Positions 3,280 through 9,215 of a DNA stretch of 64,000 nt are shown here, piece after piece; the stretch's first letter is position 1; each line of letters begins with the position of its first letter. Origin of the DNA: Streptomyces sp. H39-S7 (lineage in GTDB: Bacteria; Actinomycetota; Actinomycetes; Streptomycetales; Streptomycetaceae); contig NZ_JAPVLU010000006.1 of the NCBI RefSeq assembly GCF_027158205.1, forward strand, positions 124,001-188,000, written 5' to 3'. The position numbers and the translations under genes were made by a program. The notes beneath the pieces were generated by a model that worked only from the letters and a program-made list of their open reading frames with translations, ran no database searches and was not told the origin of the DNA.

Positions 3280-4053
3280 ATGACCGAGGTTCCGAGCCGG
3301 CGTTCGCCCGGCACGCCCTGCTGGGTCAGCTTGATGGCACACGATCTGGACGCGGCCCAGGAGTTCTACGGCGCCCTGTTCGGGTGGGAGTTCCACGAGG
3401 GCCCGCAGCACCTCGGCCCCTACGTCCGGGCCGAGCTGGGCGGCCGGCAGATCGCCGGCATCGGCGACGGCCCGAAGGACCGCCACCTCCCGGTCTCCTG
3501 GACCACCCTGCTGGCCTGCGACGACGCGGACGTCACCGCCGAGTTGATCCGCGAGTGCGGCGGCACGGTCGGTGTCGGCCCGCTGGACGCCGACCACGAG
3601 GGGCGGATGGCGGTGGCCGTCGACCCGTCGGGCGCCGTCTTCGGGATCTGGCAGGCGCAGCGCCACCCCGGCGCCGGCGTCATCGGTGAGCCCGGAACGC
3701 TGGCCTGGAACGAGTTGGTCACGCGCGAGTCGTCCAGTGTCGAGAAGTTCTACACCGATGTCTTCGGCTACGAGACGGAGACCGGGAGGGCGGCGGACTT
3801 CGACTACCTCACCCTGCGGTTGAAGGGCCGTGCGGTGGCCGGGATCCACGGGGTCGGCCCGTCGCTGCCCCGCGACCGGGGCGCGCACTGGATGACGTAC
3901 TTCGCCGTGGCGGACACCGACGCGGCGGTCCGCCGGGTGGTCGAGCTGGGCGGCCGGGTGCTGCAGCCGGCCCGCGACTCGGGCTACGGACGGCTGGCGA
4001 CTGTCGCCGACCCCGAGGGCGCCGTCTTCACCGTCATCGACGCGGCTCGCTGA
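3280..4053 (+). CDS. VOC (glyoxalase/bleomycin-resistance) family protein, two domains
   Basis: A 257-aa protein with two vicinal-oxygen-chelate modules. The first begins CWVSLMAHDLDAAQEFYGAL, the second WNELVTRESSSVEKFYTDVF; each ends in the DP-G-AVF motif (DPSGAVFGIWQ, DPEGAVFTVID). The family includes dioxygenases, glyoxalases and antibiotic-binding proteins, and the substrate cannot be told from sequence. The ATG at 3280 is preceded by GAGGAG at 3265-3270; an earlier in-frame ATG lacks a good site and encodes a non-conserved extension. Its last 20 nt overlap the 3' end of the convergent thymidine kinase remnant. Confidence 0.85.
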   Translation: MTEVPSRRSPGTPCWVSLMAHDLDAAQEFYGALFGWEFHEGPQHLGPYVRAELGGRQIAGIGDGPKDRHLPVSWTTLLACDDADVTAELIRECGGTVGVGPLDADHEGRMAVAVDPSGAVFGIWQAQRHPGAGVIGEPGTLAWNELVTRESSSVEKFYTDVFGYETETGRAADFDYLTLRLKGRAVAGIHGVGPSLPRDRGAHWMTYFAVADTDAAVRRVVELGGRVLQPARDSGYGRLATVADPEGAVFTVIDAAR

Positions 4054-4700
4054 CGCCGGCTCGGTCGACGGACCCGACGTTGCGGTCGACGGCCTGGTCC
4101 ACCGGCAGCACGTCGGGGAAGAGTGCCGAGGCCTGCGCGCTCGCCGCCGTCATCCGCCGGGTGTGGTGGCGCCGGCACAGCACCTCGTAACCGACCTCGC
4201 CCGCCGGGCGGTTGACGTCGCCGACGAAGACCTGCGCGCCTTCGACGACCATCTGGCCGTCTATGGTCCGGGCGTTGTGCGTCGCGCGGGCCCCGCACCA
4301 GCACAGCGCCTCGACCTGCAGCACCTCGACGCGGTCGGCCATCTCGACGAGCCGCCGTGACCCGGGGAAGAGCTCGGTCCTGAAGTCGGTGGTGATACCG
4401 AAAGCGAAGACGTCCAGGCCCGGGTCGTCGACGATCCGGGCGAGCTGGTCGATCTGGGCGGGCGCGAAGAACTGCGCCTCGTCGACCAGGACGTAGTCGG
4501 CACGGCCGCCGCCCGACAGGTAGGAGACCACGTAGCCGTAGAAGTCGACGTCGTCGGCCGCCTCGATCGCCTTGGTGGACAGGCCCAGCCGGGACGAGAG
4601 CACGCCCTCCCCCCGCCCGGTCGTCACGGGTGAAGATCATGCCCTGCAGCCCCCGGGTCGAGCGGTTGTGCTCGATCTGAAGAGCGAGAGTGCTCTTACT
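4034..4700 (-). pseudogene. Truncated, frameshifted thymidine kinase remnant
   Basis: A decayed second copy of thymidine kinase, closely similar to the intact gene at 7306-7956. Homology begins abruptly at the P-loop lysine (codon 15); the first 13 codons are missing and the Walker-A glycine just before that lysine is replaced by serine. A +1 base in a run of six C (4609-4614, + strand) breaks the frame: residues through IFTRDDRAG are in one frame and SSRLGL onward in another. The rest keeps recognisable active-site and zinc-binding blocks (DEAQFFAPAQID, ALCWCGARATHNAR, CRRHH), so decay is fairly recent. The reading frame runs past the normal end to 4034. Positions 4701-4835 beyond it hold no gene I can see. 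No functional kinase is expected. Confidence 0.88.
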
Positions 4701-4835
4701 GGGGCATCCGCCATGTCAGCTGAGCCGGGACCGCTCCCCGCAGCCCTTCGGCGCCGTCCGACTCTCGGGCGCGAGAGCACGAGGGCCGTGCGCCCACACC
4801 GAGCCCGCCTGGGGGTTGCGCCCGGGATGGGTGGG

Positions 4836-6071
4836 TCACATCTGCTGGAGTCTGCGATTGGCTTCGCCGGGGGTGAACAGGGCCGCGTCGAAGCCCGCCC
4901 CGGAGTCAAGGCCGAGCCACCGCACGAGGTCGTCGTGCTCCGCCCGTGTCGGGTCGGCGAGAGTCCGCTTGAGGTCTTCATAGGCCGCGGCGCCTCCGCA
5001 GTCCTCAGGAGGGCATGCGCCGGAACCGGCTACGCAGACCGGATAGCTCCGGTCCGCCTCGGCTGCGAGCCGGTGCTCCACCGTGACGCGGTGGTCCCAG
5101 GAATCACCGAAGTCGTACGTGTAGGCAAAGCTCCCTCCCTCCTTGAGCAGGGCGCCGAGAGTGACGCCCCGCTCGTCCTCGAAGTCGAGCTCGGTGTTGG
5201 CCCGGCCGTACTGGACGCCGTCCACGGTGAAAGCGTGCATATGGCTGTCCTCCCAGCCCATGACAGCCTGGATCGCGGCATGCACTTGGTCGAACCGGGC
5301 CGCGGCCGGCAGCAGCGCACGTCGCCAGACCGCCGGTTCGACAACGTCCTCCAGATCGATGCGCAGCTGGAACACCGTTTCTCCGGGGAGCGGTTCGCCG
5401 CGCATCACGGCCACGGCCTGCCTGCCCTGACCCGTCAGCTCCACGGTGTCATCGTCGCTTCGGACGGCCCCAAGGGCCGCGAGGACGTCGAGCAACAGCC
5501 GCACGTCACGATCGTTGCTGCCGCGCCAGCCCCGCAGCCGCTCGGGCGACACATCGTCGAGGATGTAGGGAGCGGTCACCGCCTGCCACACCGCTCTGCG
5601 CAGCGCGTCGCCGGCGAGCGGGCCACGAGCCGCGTACAGCCGATGCAGCAGCGTCCGCAGGCCGGCGGCATACTCCTGCGAGAAGACCGACTGGGCCCAC
5701 CCCGAGACCAGTACGGCACTCCCGATGCGCGGTACCGCTTCGAAGAGGGCGTTCCACAGGCCATCGGGCTGGTCGAGCAGCCGGGCGTTCTTCTTCACCG
5801 GGAGCAGACGACCACCGGCAACCCTCAGCAGTCTGGCGGCCTTGGCCCATTCCGCCAGCAGGTTGAGGTGGTACAGCTCTTCGCTGGACTTCGTCTTGAA
5901 CATCCGGTCACCGATCACCGGGTCCAGCTGGTCGCCGGTGCCCAGCAGCTCCACCAAGGTCCGGGCGTCCGCGAGAGTGATCCGGCCGGTCTGCGTCAGT
6001 TTCCGTCCCGCGCCGATCCACCCGACCAACTCCCGCACCTGCCCCACCGACTTGCCATGAGACTGGTCCAC
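4836..6071 (-). CDS. Plasmid pRiA4b ORF-3 family protein
   Basis: A 411-aa protein. The C-terminal part (about residues 230-410) matches the pRiA4b ORF-3 family: FQLRIDLEDVVEPAVWRR, YTYDFGDSWDHRV and ACPPEDCGG are its hallmark blocks. This family is often annotated as a passenger protein of mobile elements; its biochemical role is unknown. The N-terminal part is mostly helical, with no motif I recognise. I chose the GTG at 6071, which has GGAG about 6 nt upstream and lies downstream of a candidate -10 (6106-6111); a GTG at 6122 is an alternative that would add 17 residues. It is divergent from the gene at 6148, and the two sit between two copies of tdk. Mobile-type family and position suggest acquired DNA. 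Confidence 0.8.
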   Translation of the reverse strand: MDQSHGKSVGQVRELVGWIGAGRKLTQTGRITLADARTLVELLGTGDQLDPVIGDRMFKTKSSEELYHLNLLAEWAKAARLLRVAGGRLLPVKKNARLLDQPDGLWNALFEAVPRIGSAVLVSGWAQSVFSQEYAAGLRTLLHRLYAARGPLAGDALRRAVWQAVTAPYILDDVSPERLRGWRGSNDRDVRLLLDVLAALGAVRSDDDTVELTGQGRQAVAVMRGEPLPGETVFQLRIDLEDVVEPAVWRRALLPAAARFDQVHAAIQAVMGWEDSHMHAFTVDGVQYGRANTELDFEDERGVTLGALLKEGGSFAYTYDFGDSWDHRVTVEHRLAAEADRSYPVCVAGSGACPPEDCGGAAAYEDLKRTLADPTRAEHDDLVRWLGLDSGAGFDAALFTPGEANRRLQQM

Positions 6072-6105
6072 AACCGCTCCGTTCCGTGCTCTCGCCGCCT
6101 CGCCG

Positions 6106-6111
6106 AATCTA
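6106..6111 (-). promoter_or_regulatory. Candidate -10 element for the pRiA4b ORF-3 gene
   Basis: TAGATT on the minus strand fits the Streptomyces TANNNT -10. It would start transcription near 6099, giving a short leader that contains GGAG before the GTG at 6071. No clear -35 is seen. Confidence 0.35.
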
Positions 6112-6134
6112 CCCTCCCGCACCGCCGTCAGCCG

Positions 6135-6140
6135 TAGGGT
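6135..6140 (+). promoter_or_regulatory. -10 element of a leaderless promoter for the gene at 6148
   Basis: TAGGGT is followed by exactly 7 nt and then the GTG start. This is the layout of Streptomyces leaderless transcripts, where transcription begins at the start codon. It supports the GTG at 6148 over the GTG at 6139. Confidence 0.55.
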
Positions 6141-6147
6141 GCTTCCG

Positions 6148-7278
6148 GTGAGCGAGTACCAGTACTACGAGTTTCAGGCCCTGGACCGGCCGCTGAGCGG
6201 CGACCAGCGGGAAGCACTGCGGGGCGTCTCCAGCCGGGCCAGGATCACCGCCACGAGCTTCACCAACGAATACCACTGGGGCGACCTGCGGGGGAATCCG
6301 CGAAACCTGGTGGAACGGTACTTCGACGCCCATCTGTACGTCGCCAGCTGGGGCACACGCCGGCTGATGCTCCGCCTGCCCCTACAGCGCCTGGCCCTGC
6401 GCAGCGTCCAACCGTACGGTCTCGGCAACCACGTCGAAGCCTGGGCCACCCGGACCCACCTTCTCCTCGACCTGACCAGCGAGGACGAGGGCGCCGACTG
6501 GGACGAGGGAGCCGACGATTCCCTGGCAGCGGTCATCGGCGTACGCGAGGAACTCGCCACCGGCGATATGCGGCCCCTCTATCTGGCGTGGCTCTCCGCC
6601 CTCTCTGCCTGGGAAGCCGAGGACGACGACGAAGGGGAGTACCAGTCCGCCCTGGAGCCTCCCGTCCCCGCCGGCCTGGGCAAACTCACGGCTCCGCAAA
6701 GCGCGCTCGCGGACTTCCTGCGCATCGACACCGACCTGCTCGCCGTCGCCGCACAGAGCAGCACCGCGGCGCCGGAACCCGCAGCCAGTCTGACACGGAA
6801 GGAGCTCGCGCGACTCGTCTCCGCCCTCCCGGACGAGGAGAAGGACGCCCTACTGGTGCGCCTCGCCCTCGGCCCGGAACCCCACTTGCACAGCGAACTC
6901 CTGCACCGTCTGCGGGAAACTTCCGCCCCCGCGACCGCACCCGGTCGCCGGACCGCCGCCCGGCTGCTGGATGCGGCGCACACCCGCCGCGCCGAGCGCC
7001 ACGGGCACGCCGAACGCGACCGGTTGCGAGCCCGCGCCACGCGCCTGACCGCACTCGCCGCCGAGGCGGACATCATCTGGAACCAGGCCGAAGCACACAT
7101 CGCCTCCAAGAAGACCAGTGCCTACGACGCGGCTGTCGCCCTCCTTTGTGACCTGCGCGATGCCTGCGCTCACGCCGGATACGGTGTCGATTTCCAGCAG
7201 CGTCTGGGGCTCCTGCGCGACACCTACCGGAGCCGGCCCGGCCTCATCCACCGTCTCGACAGTCACGGTCTCCGGTAA
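6148..7278 (+). CDS. Conserved protein of unknown function (SEYQYYEF family)
   Basis: A 376-aa protein beginning SEYQYYEFQALDRPLSGDQ, followed by conserved blocks TSFTNEYHWGDLRG and ERYFDAHLYVASWGTRRL. I recognise this as a conserved bacterial family, often beside SWIM zinc-finger genes, with no known biochemical activity; no SWIM gene is present here. The middle is acidic (EDEGADWDEGADD) and the C-terminal third is Arg/Ala-rich and helical, possibly coiled coil. There is no signal peptide or membrane segment. The start is fixed by a leaderless promoter 7 nt upstream. It diverges from the pRiA4b ORF-3 gene and converges on tdk, leaving 27 nt. Confidence 0.78.
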   Translation: MSEYQYYEFQALDRPLSGDQREALRGVSSRARITATSFTNEYHWGDLRGNPRNLVERYFDAHLYVASWGTRRLMLRLPLQRLALRSVQPYGLGNHVEAWATRTHLLLDLTSEDEGADWDEGADDSLAAVIGVREELATGDMRPLYLAWLSALSAWEAEDDDEGEYQSALEPPVPAGLGKLTAPQSALADFLRIDTDLLAVAAQSSTAAPEPAASLTRKELARLVSALPDEEKDALLVRLALGPEPHLHSELLHRLRETSAPATAPGRRTAARLLDAAHTRRAERHGHAERDRLRARATRLTALAAEADIIWNQAEAHIASKKTSAYDAAVALLCDLRDACAHAGYGVDFQQRLGLLRDTYRSRPGLIHRLDSHGLR

Positions 7279-7305
7279 CTCGGCCGCCGGCATGGAAGAA
7301 GCCGG

Positions 7306-7956
7306 TCAGGCGTGGTTGACGGGGAGGACGTCCGGGGAGAGGGCGCCGGCGTGGGCTGCGGCCGAGGTCATGCGGCGGCGGTGATGGCGGCGGCACAGGA
7401 CCTCGTAGCCGATCTCCTCCGCCGGGCGGTTCACGTCACCGACCACCACCTGGGCGCCCTCGACGACCATCTCGCCGCCCACGGTACGGGCGTTGTGCGT
7501 GGCACGGGCGCCGCACCAGCACAGGGCCTCGACCTGGAGCTGCTCAAGCCGGTCCGCCAGCTCGATCAGCCGCTGCGAGCCCGGGAACAGCTTCGTGCGG
7601 AAGTCCGTCGTGATACCGAACGCGAAGACGTCCATGTCCAGGTCGTCCACGATGCGCGCAAGCTGGTCGATCTGCTCCGGGGCCAGGAACTGGGCCTCGT
7701 CCACGATCACGTAGTCCGCCTTGCCGCCCTTCGAGAGCTGGGAGACCAGGTACGCGTACAAGTCCATGCCCTCCGGCGCCTCGATCGCCTCCGTCACCAG
7801 ACCCAGCCGGGACGACAGCTTGCCCTCGCCCGCGCGGTCGTCCCGCGTGAAGATCACGCCCTGCAGACCCCGCGCGTCGCGGTTATGGGCAATCTGGAGC
7901 GCCAAAGTGCTCTTTCCGCAGTCCATCGTTCCGGAGAAGAACACAAGCTCGGGCAT
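7306..7956 (-). CDS. tdk: Thymidine kinase
   Basis: Type II thymidine kinase, 216 aa, phosphorylating thymidine to dTMP in the pyrimidine salvage pathway. The Walker A loop GTMDCGKST is at residues 9-17 and the catalytic glutamate at 87 (VDEAQF). The lasso domain has zinc ligands C146, C148, C188 and H191 (ALCWCGA, LCRRHH). All elements lost or altered in the left-hand remnant at 4034-4700 are intact here. It starts 59 nt downstream of no promoter I can identify; the gap to the phosphodiesterase stop at 8016 is short, so both may be read from the same transcript. The 5' part (codons 1-14) is probably the ancestral locus, and the rest may have been supplied by the inserted segment (see findings). 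Confidence 0.93.
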   Translation of the reverse strand: MPELVFFSGTMDCGKSTLALQIAHNRDARGLQGVIFTRDDRAGEGKLSSRLGLVTEAIEAPEGMDLYAYLVSQLSKGGKADYVIVDEAQFLAPEQIDQLARIVDDLDMDVFAFGITTDFRTKLFPGSQRLIELADRLEQLQVEALCWCGARATHNARTVGGEMVVEGAQVVVGDVNRPAEEIGYEVLCRRHHRRRMTSAAAHAGALSPDVLPVNHA

Positions 7957-8015: not shown

Positions 8016-9215
8016 TCAGGAGCGTACTTCGAGCAGCGGCACGTGCTGCTCGACGGGGGACATCGAGCCGTGCAGACCCACCATCAGGGACTCCCCCGAC
8101 TCCGTGCGGTTCGCCACGATCGCGATGTCGTCGCGCGCGACGGCGATGACGTCGCCGATCCTGCCGAGCACCCGCTCGTCGACGGGGTCGCCGGGGCGGC
8201 CGAACCAGCCCGCCGCGATGGCCTCTTCACGGGTGGCGACCCACATCTGCTCGCCGAGCACCTCGCTCCACACCGTGTACACGTCGGCGGCGGCGCCCGG
8301 CACGGCGTACACGTGGCGGGCACGGGCCTCGCCGCCGAGGACGGAGACGCCGGCGCCCAGCTCCCAGTCCTCGTCGAAGTCGATCCTGGACTCGGGGTCG
8401 AACGGGATGTCGATCATGCCGTGGTCGGCGGTGATGTAGAGCGCGGAGCGCGGCGGGAGTTGCTCGGCCAGCCGCTGGGCGAGGCGGTCGACCATCATCA
8501 ACTGGCCGCGCCAGGCGTCGGAGTCGACGCCGTGCCGGTGGCCCATGGAGTCCAGCTCGCTGTAGTACGTGTAGACGAGCGTCCGGTCGGCGGCGCCGAG
8601 CCGGTCGGCCGCCAGGTCCATCCGCTCGTCGCCGGTGAGCCGGCCGTGGAAGGTGCCGCCGCTGAGCGCGATCTTCGTCAGCGGCGTGTGCTGGAAGTTC
8701 GGCGAGGACACCTGACAGGTCGCGACCCCGGCGGCGTCGGCGAGCTGGAAGACGGTGGGGTAGGGCTGCCACACGTGCGGGTCGGTCCACGGCTGCCAGC
8801 GCAGCTGGTTCATCAGCCGCCCGGAGGACGGATCCAGGACGGTGTAGCCGGCGAGCCCGTGGCGGCCCGGCGCCAGGCCGGTGCCGACCGACGCGAGCGA
8901 GGTCGCGGTGGTGGACGGGAAGCCCGCGGTGAGCGGCTGCCCCGTGCCGCCCCGGGAGGTGTGCATCAGGGAGGCGAGGAAGGGCGCCTCCTCCGGGTGC
9001 GCGCGCAGCAGTTCCCAGCCCATCCCGTCGACCAGGAAGACGCAGACGCGGTCGGCGGGGGCCAGTTCGAGGCCGGTGGCGGGCATGCCCGGGACGGCCA
9101 GCCCGGCGGCCGCCGCGGGGAAGAGGTCGCAGAGCGAGGCGGTGCCGTAGAGCGGTGCCGGAGCGGTACGCGGATCCAGTGGCGCGGGGTCGTAGGCGGG
9201 TACGGCGTGCACCAT
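8016..9215 (-). CDS. Alkaline phosphatase superfamily nucleotide pyrophosphatase/phosphodiesterase
   Basis: A 399-aa metal-dependent hydrolase of the nucleotide pyrophosphatase/phosphodiesterase branch. Metal and catalytic signatures appear in order: VFLVDGMGWE (metal aspartate), FPSTTATS (Thr nucleophile region), YSELDSMGHRHG (Asp/His metal ligands), ITADHGM (Asp-His pair) and VGLHGSMSPVE (final His). There is no signal peptide, so a cytoplasmic location is inferred. Its ATG overlaps the stop of the DUF5998 gene by one base (TGATG), so translation is likely coupled. The substrate is unknown. Confidence 0.85.
   Translation of the reverse strand: MVHAVPAYDPAPLDPRTAPAPLYGTASLCDLFPAAAAGLAVPGMPATGLELAPADRVCVFLVDGMGWELLRAHPEEAPFLASLMHTSRGGTGQPLTAGFPSTTATSLASVGTGLAPGRHGLAGYTVLDPSSGRLMNQLRWQPWTDPHVWQPYPTVFQLADAAGVATCQVSSPNFQHTPLTKIALSGGTFHGRLTGDERMDLAADRLGAADRTLVYTYYSELDSMGHRHGVDSDAWRGQLMMVDRLAQRLAEQLPPRSALYITADHGMIDIPFDPESRIDFDEDWELGAGVSVLGGEARARHVYAVPGAAADVYTVWSEVLGEQMWVATREEAIAAGWFGRPGDPVDERVLGRIGDVIAVARDDIAIVANRTESGESLMVGLHGSMSPVEQHVPLLEVRS

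Follow-up and report, generated by a model that had tools for sequence, protein, structure and literature searches.

A foreign cassette at codon 15 of the thymidine kinase gene of Streptomyces sp. H39-S7, and stacked units at the same gene in other Streptomyces

The DNA analyzed here, referred to as the window, is a stretch of 64,000 nucleotides (nt) of Streptomyces sp. H39-S7 (contig NZ_JAPVLU010000006.1, positions 124,001 to 188,000). It contains two copies of the thymidine kinase gene tdk, one of which lacks its 5' end, and between them two divergent genes, g1 and g2; a VOC/glyoxalase-family gene and a phosphodiesterase-family gene flank the whole (Table 1). An earlier note on this DNA had proposed that tdk was invaded at the P-loop by an element carrying a replacement 3' part, after which the old 3' part decayed. 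Empty sites in related genomes and a switch between native and foreign sequence now bear out this proposal. The note described a single insertion, which stands, and missed that the insert is one of many related cassettes that can be stacked and that have a common end motif.

The right tdk gene (7306-7956) is complete, with a match to NCBIfam NF003297 of 352.7 bits (cut-off 252). The left copy aligns to it from exactly nt 43 on, i.e., from codon 15 (AAG), which encodes the P-loop lysine, and contains one inserted base in a run of Cs. These features had been reported before, as had the 9-bp direct repeat AGTGCTCTT, which we find at both junctions. On the plus strand of the window AGTGCTCTT is present only at these two positions, and its reverse complement does not occur in the window at all.

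In the three nearest genomes (G017, G033 and G027), the VOC gene, a single tdk gene and the phosphodiesterase gene are consecutive and tdk is uninterrupted, which is the ancestral order anticipated by the earlier note. The window is 91-93% identical to these genomes on each side of the insert. More generally, tdk is present in 377 of 395 Streptomycetaceae genomes and is nearly always single; more than one match was obtained in eight.

The origin of the two copies was analyzed at 95 informative sites, at which the native tdk genes of G017, G033 and G027 can be told apart from the tdk type of the main Streptomyces clade. Of the 77 such sites located between nt 55 and the stop codon (nt 651), 72 are native in the left remnant. 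For the right gene the situation is reversed: 72 of the same 77 sites are foreign, i.e., it is foreign from codon 19 on, whereas 17 of the 18 sites upstream of its ATG are native. The switch is located somewhere in nt 1-54, and nt 1-51 contain no informative site; judging from the flank, codons 1-14 of the right gene are most likely native. On both sides of the insert the native and foreign sequences change over in the same short stretch of tdk. This switch is the strong evidence for an insertion; taken by itself, the 9-bp repeat would carry little weight.

Phylogenetic analysis gave a corresponding picture. The left copy groups with the tdk genes of G017, G033 and G027 (support 100/99), and the right copy forms a sister pair with the tdk gene that G436 carries in the same cassette (support 100/94), inside a clade of 26 rows formed by main-clade and array tdk copies. 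The different origins predicted earlier for the 5' and 3' parts of the right gene are seen as a native 5' flank next to a foreign 3' part, and the two copies fall into separate clades. A pair of tdk copies separated by 3 kb, in a draft assembly of 146 contigs, could also reflect an assembly error or a recent tandem duplication. We attach next to no probability to this explanation: the clades concerned are well supported, and the same unit has been assembled independently in other genomes. A tandem duplication, which the earlier note had named as an outcome that would overturn its model, was rejected on the basis of the tree and of the recurrence of the unit elsewhere.

A scan with g2 identified six Streptomyces genomes that contain a g2 gene with 86-95% identity, in all cases located beside tandem tdk copies. 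From one attachment (att) core to the other, the window unit matches a single array unit over its full length in G434 (94.0%), G438 (94.6%) and G439 (94.1%); the homology starts 0 bp from the left core and stops 0-10 bp from the right core. Nearly all internal tdk copies of the arrays begin at codon 15, some being shortened further, and such starts are found in the arrays of the six genomes as well as in G170 and G084. Only the promoter-proximal tdk gene, located beside the phosphodiesterase gene, is complete. The largest array, that of G435, contains six stacked units plus older remnants. A 12-kb cassette common to G435, G438 and G439 has the identical exact left end in all three. Distinct cassettes have no gene in common besides the tdk tail and, in several of them, Rhs genes.

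Immediately 5' of codon 15, the cassettes end in a motif that is not part of the tdk sequence, A-N-W-TGG-Y-G-R-ATG-S-Y-C-N-AG-N. It was derived from 22 aligned internal boundaries, 15 of which have unrelated upstream sequences, and amounts to about 25 bits across 18 positions; farther out than position -20 the values are low. When two mismatches were allowed, the motif was found 19 times in 14 genomes, always at tdk arrays, and the reversed control gave 0 occurrences. A longer pattern of the motif matched 4 of the 395 Streptomycetaceae genomes, and its control 0.

Table 1. Features of the tdk locus in the window (positions in the window; strand given where assigned)
Feature	Position	Strand	Evidence or remark
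Whole inserted cassette, 3,217 bp	4698..7914		att-to-att alignment to one array unit each of G434, G438 and G439
Native tdk remnant, codon 15 to 3' end, decayed, without start codon	4091..4697	-	Alignment to tdk from nt 43; informative sites; tree
One-base insertion (frameshift) in C run of tdk remnant	4605..4616	-	Gap column in alignments
Left copy of 9-bp core AGTGCTCTT (tdk strand AAGAGCACT)	4689..4697		Sequence
Motif at the cassette end (left arm of att), immediately 5' of codon 15; reads ACATGGCGGATGCCCCAGT on the tdk strand	4698..4716	-	Present in 15 cassettes whose ends are otherwise unrelated
Cassette-borne foreign tail of tdk (codons 15-216)	7306..7914	-	Informative sites; tree
Right copy of 9-bp core AGTGCTCTT	7906..7914		Sequence
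tdk codons 1-14, joined to foreign tail	7915..7956	-	Upstream DNA native at 17/18 sites
Cargo g1: PRiA4_ORF3 C domain, preceded by an N part predicted to be winged-helix-like	4836..6122	-	PF07929, E 2e-53; AlphaFold model
Cargo g2: conserved 379-aa family	6139..7278	+	324 relatives
VOC/glyoxalase-family gene	3280..4053	+	PF18029/PF00903; native left flank; adjoins tdk in G017, G033, G027 and G004
Phosphodiesterase-family gene	8016..9215	-	PF01663; native right flank; gene order same in relatives

Exact boundaries, a foreign right-hand tail, recurrence of the identical unit, stacking and a shared end motif are thus observed, and for these we propose a mechanism that we consider quite likely. 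The insert would be one mobile cassette that entered tdk by site-specific recombination at codons 15-17 (K-S-T of the P-loop), the target being remade each time. A cassette unit would consist of tdk codons 15-216, cargo and the end motif of about 18 bp, and would insert probably as a circle. Native codons 1-14 would become joined to the cassette-borne tail, which would remake both a full tdk gene and an attB-like site, and the displaced native tail would persist as a pseudogene beyond the end of the cassette. As each insertion would restore the target, further cassettes could enter at the same place and stack, and the arrays would grow on the promoter-proximal side.

Several observations weigh against this mechanism. 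The arrays were discovered via g2 and hence are not a random sample. Pfam searches of the arrays detected neither tyrosine (PF00589) nor serine (PF00239) recombinases, and no circular or free cassette was found in collections of phages, plasmids and viral sequences. The core reads AAGAGCAC in complete tdk genes and is altered in most internal copies, which differ from it at nt 47-48 (about one third retain the native bases there); this would be unusual if the enzyme needs an identical overlap. The right exchange falls within 32-38 bp, starting at nt 13, that make up the longest stretch of identity between the native and foreign genes. Finally, the tdk tails are 88-91% identical compared to about 94% for whole units, and the copies cluster partly by genome.

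Selection that keeps the P-loop of the complete copy working, while the displaced copy tolerates both forms, might explain the core pattern. The lower identity of the tails, together with their partial clustering by genome, indicates that homologous exchange acts on the tdk copies too. The earlier note had mentioned homologous replacement as an alternative. In its strict form, a donor with the gene pair and tdk recombined and nothing else happened, the codon-15 boundary being inherited from one ancestral truncated copy. The mosaic identity of the array copies and their partial clustering fit this explanation, as do the mosaic single tdk gene of G004 and the position of the right-hand exchange, which homologous recombination could account for. 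However, it could not account for the left exchange: the window remnant is native from codon 15, where the bases that it shares with the cassette-type site form a run of 4-12 bp, too short for homologous exchange and at the very edge of 600 bp of homology. Moreover, one truncated ancestor does not explain a codon-15 junction and a motif that are common to 15 cassettes with unrelated ends. Homologous recombination only is therefore an improbable explanation, and the alternative of the note holds as a possibility for the right-hand exchange and not for the other parts.

The tdk gene of G004 (L007, 1501-2148) is single and mosaic, with nt 52-350 closest to G029 and the remainder like that of G033/G027. 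It likely arose by ordinary homologous exchange. The possibility that it is an excision scar was dropped, as its 5' part is closest to G029 and not to the cassette tdk type.

To return to the proposed site-specific insertion, the window unit contains g1, g2 and the tdk tail only. Because the arrays give no PF00589 or PF00239 match and distinct cassettes have no common gene beyond the tdk tail and, in several of them, Rhs genes, the enzyme is likely located outside the arrays and would probably act in trans. Pfam-negative arrays are not proof of the absence of an integrase, because IntSt, the recombinase of the Streptomyces island PAISt, escapes Pfam; integrases missed in this way (IntSt-like) may be present in the larger cassettes. 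As to the type of enzyme, a dyad test of the att site gave nt 46 as the best of 29 centres tried (58 of 117 matches). This weak partial dyad around a short spacer is suggestive only; it would fit the core of a tyrosine recombinase without proving it, and a tyrosine-type enzyme is a weak guess.

A large serine recombinase gene is present at the tdk gene of G191, directly beside a tdk remnant. It belongs to a 27.6-kb element located in the same P-loop (G191:C1, about 5326560-5354850; L189, L190, L195), which also contains Rhs-like giant genes and a complete tdk gene that has a start of its own. At one end of the element, nt 1-50 of the native tdk gene remain. The recombinase has lost its N-terminal part (the match begins at PF00239 position 34). 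The cassettes might be decayed remnants or satellites of a G191-type element that use its att sites. We regard this as very unlikely: the cassette motif is missing at the right junction of G191 (after nt 51, GACTTCC...) and from G191 altogether, and the element carries a whole tdk gene instead of a tail. In addition, the 395 family genomes contain a single further relative of the integrase at E<=1e-100; phage matches are below 60% identity, and none were found in viral contigs. Since both junction and sequence differ, the G191 element is separate from the cassettes, and the tdk P-loop codon block is targeted by more than one system.

Other mobile units share properties with the tdk cassettes. 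Staphylococcal cassette chromosome (SCC) elements, which integrate at rlmH, carry their own ccr recombinases and rebuild only a short gene end. As with SCC, the target gene stays intact and several elements may be present in tandem at one gene; in contrast to SCC, which has ccr on the element, the tdk cassettes rebuild most of the gene. Integrons stack recombinase-less cassettes at one platform, the newest on the promoter side. The tdk cassettes are likewise stacked at one platform, with no recombinase detected in them. They differ in that no intI gene was found at tdk, in that the att site shows only a weak dyad and no evident attC, the type of cassette site that integrons recombine as a folded single strand, and in that the cassettes are 3-12 kb or larger, with a tail rebuilding a host gene; the tdk loci of the array genomes contain no PF00589 match, and the neighbours are the VOC and phosphodiesterase genes. 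Nor do the cassettes resemble elements with their own integrase gene next to att, such as integrative and conjugative elements (ICEs), integrative and mobilizable elements or prophages: with Pfam, neither the window unit nor the arrays gave an integrase match, and such a gene was seen only in the separate G191 element.

Cis-mobilizable elements (CIMEs), known from site-specific accretion, are att-flanked units without integration genes that form tandems via an att site including part of the target gene (PMC5704250). The tdk units are also att-flanked, lack Pfam-detectable integration genes and lie in tandem at one gene. They have two related recombination sites, with the 9-bp core at both ends and units ending at the codon-15 core; the window unit and the arrays contain no PF00589/PF00239 match; and up to six units (G435) have accreted at the one target. 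Unlike CIMEs, each tdk unit holds about 94% of a protein-coding target (609/651 bp) instead of a short end, and the cassettes carry many unrelated small cargos. CIMEs arise from an ICE or an integrative and mobilizable element that has lost its modules; for the cassettes, neither a parent ICE nor any parent element with the cassette motif was found, and they have no common backbone.

PAISt of Streptomyces turgidiscabies integrates at an 8-bp palindrome, TTCATGAA, at the 3' end of bacA by means of the island-encoded tyrosine recombinase IntSt; it is modular, integrates in tandem and captures att plasmids, and its authors call it integron-like (PMC4057263). Both systems are thus site-specific, modular and tandem in Streptomyces, but PAISt differs in its target and in having its own IntSt, whereas no recombinase was detected by Pfam in the tdk cassettes. 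In Dehalococcoides, 16 of 31 ssrA-specific islands carry a syntenic integration module (PMC3146451). There too, many islands with varied cargo, some without an integration module, occupy one single-copy gene, which differs from tdk in being an RNA gene. By analogy, the tdk arrays would work like CIME accretion and integron arrays. We found no literature report of tdk as an integration site in a search that left subscription journals mostly outside.

The gene pair of the window is cargo. As the earlier note had described, g1, which has a pRiA4b ORF-3 domain, is divergent from an uncharacterized conserved gene, g2. The latter matches no family of Pfam, NCBIfam, PADLOC or PHROGs. The note had pointed to a link of the PRiA4 family with mobile elements, but the gene is no evidence of mobility machinery. 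The AlphaFold model of g1 resembles 2i1s over residues 246-425 (Z 24.4) and winged-helix structures over residues 121-243 (Z about 7-8); the latter, with its middling Z, proves little, and a DNA-binding or regulatory role for the predicted protein is a guess. The g2 model (pLDDT 85) has no clear fold match, and no recombinase was present among the matches listed in the fold searches for g1 and g2. The 324 relatives of g2 in genome contigs range from Streptomyces to Desulfobacterota (Desulfobacter) and Planctomycetota. The family is also present in Myxococcota, being widespread though without a family model (loci L083-L156), and in four loci a SWIM-like zinc-finger protein is encoded near g2; clustering of g2 neighbourhoods is confounded by antisense open reading frames (ORFs) in GC-rich DNA. 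In the fetched loci, the tdk cassette is the only place that holds both genes in full; the occurrence of the pair away from tdk, which would have spoken against the proposed insertion, was not observed there.

The cargo of the arrays includes Rhs/WXG100/type VII secretion signal toxins with an Imm50 gene, a cluster of cytochrome P450, MFS and arginine-deiminase-like genes, and TetR and PPDK genes. One cassette of the G438 array (L164, 9148-13733) contains a HerA-like ATPase gene beside a gene for a calpain-like protease. The two might form a defence pair; the HerA/mad8 matches obtained with PADLOC are only weak. In G170 (L179, 14453-16449), an RNA ligase gene and a polynucleotide kinase-phosphatase gene (an RNA repair pair) are located between the VOC gene and the tdk copies. 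In G084 (C2, 1289571-1368307; L180, L181, L183-L186), a 78-kb stretch lies between a codon-15 tdk copy and a complete tdk gene, and contains two giant ORFs of 3419 and 8282 aa that look like nonribosomal peptide synthetase (NRPS) genes by eye, not by family search. The two tdk copies of G084 are about 98% identical, which might reflect either a close donor or homogenized copies. Two further giant ORFs that are NRPS-like by eye (2999 and 5238 aa) are located left of tdk in G164 (C1; L187, L188). The adjoining tdk gene is complete, its product is 99% identical to that of the right tdk gene of the window, and no codon-15 tdk copy was found within 75 kb.

These results define a testable site, codon 15 of tdk, at which Streptomyces acquire toxins, biosynthetic genes and other genes as precise units while tdk is kept. 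The end motif allows such cassettes to be detected from sequence alone, and cloning in laboratory Streptomyces might make use of the site as a landing pad for successive insertions. In a wider sense, and more tentatively, it is possible, though we would not call it probable, that tdk codons 1-14 form an integron-like insertion platform in the Streptomycetaceae, at which recombinase-less cassettes consisting of a tdk tail and the 18-bp motif would be stacked by a recombinase encoded elsewhere, and which would move toxins and biosynthetic clusters.
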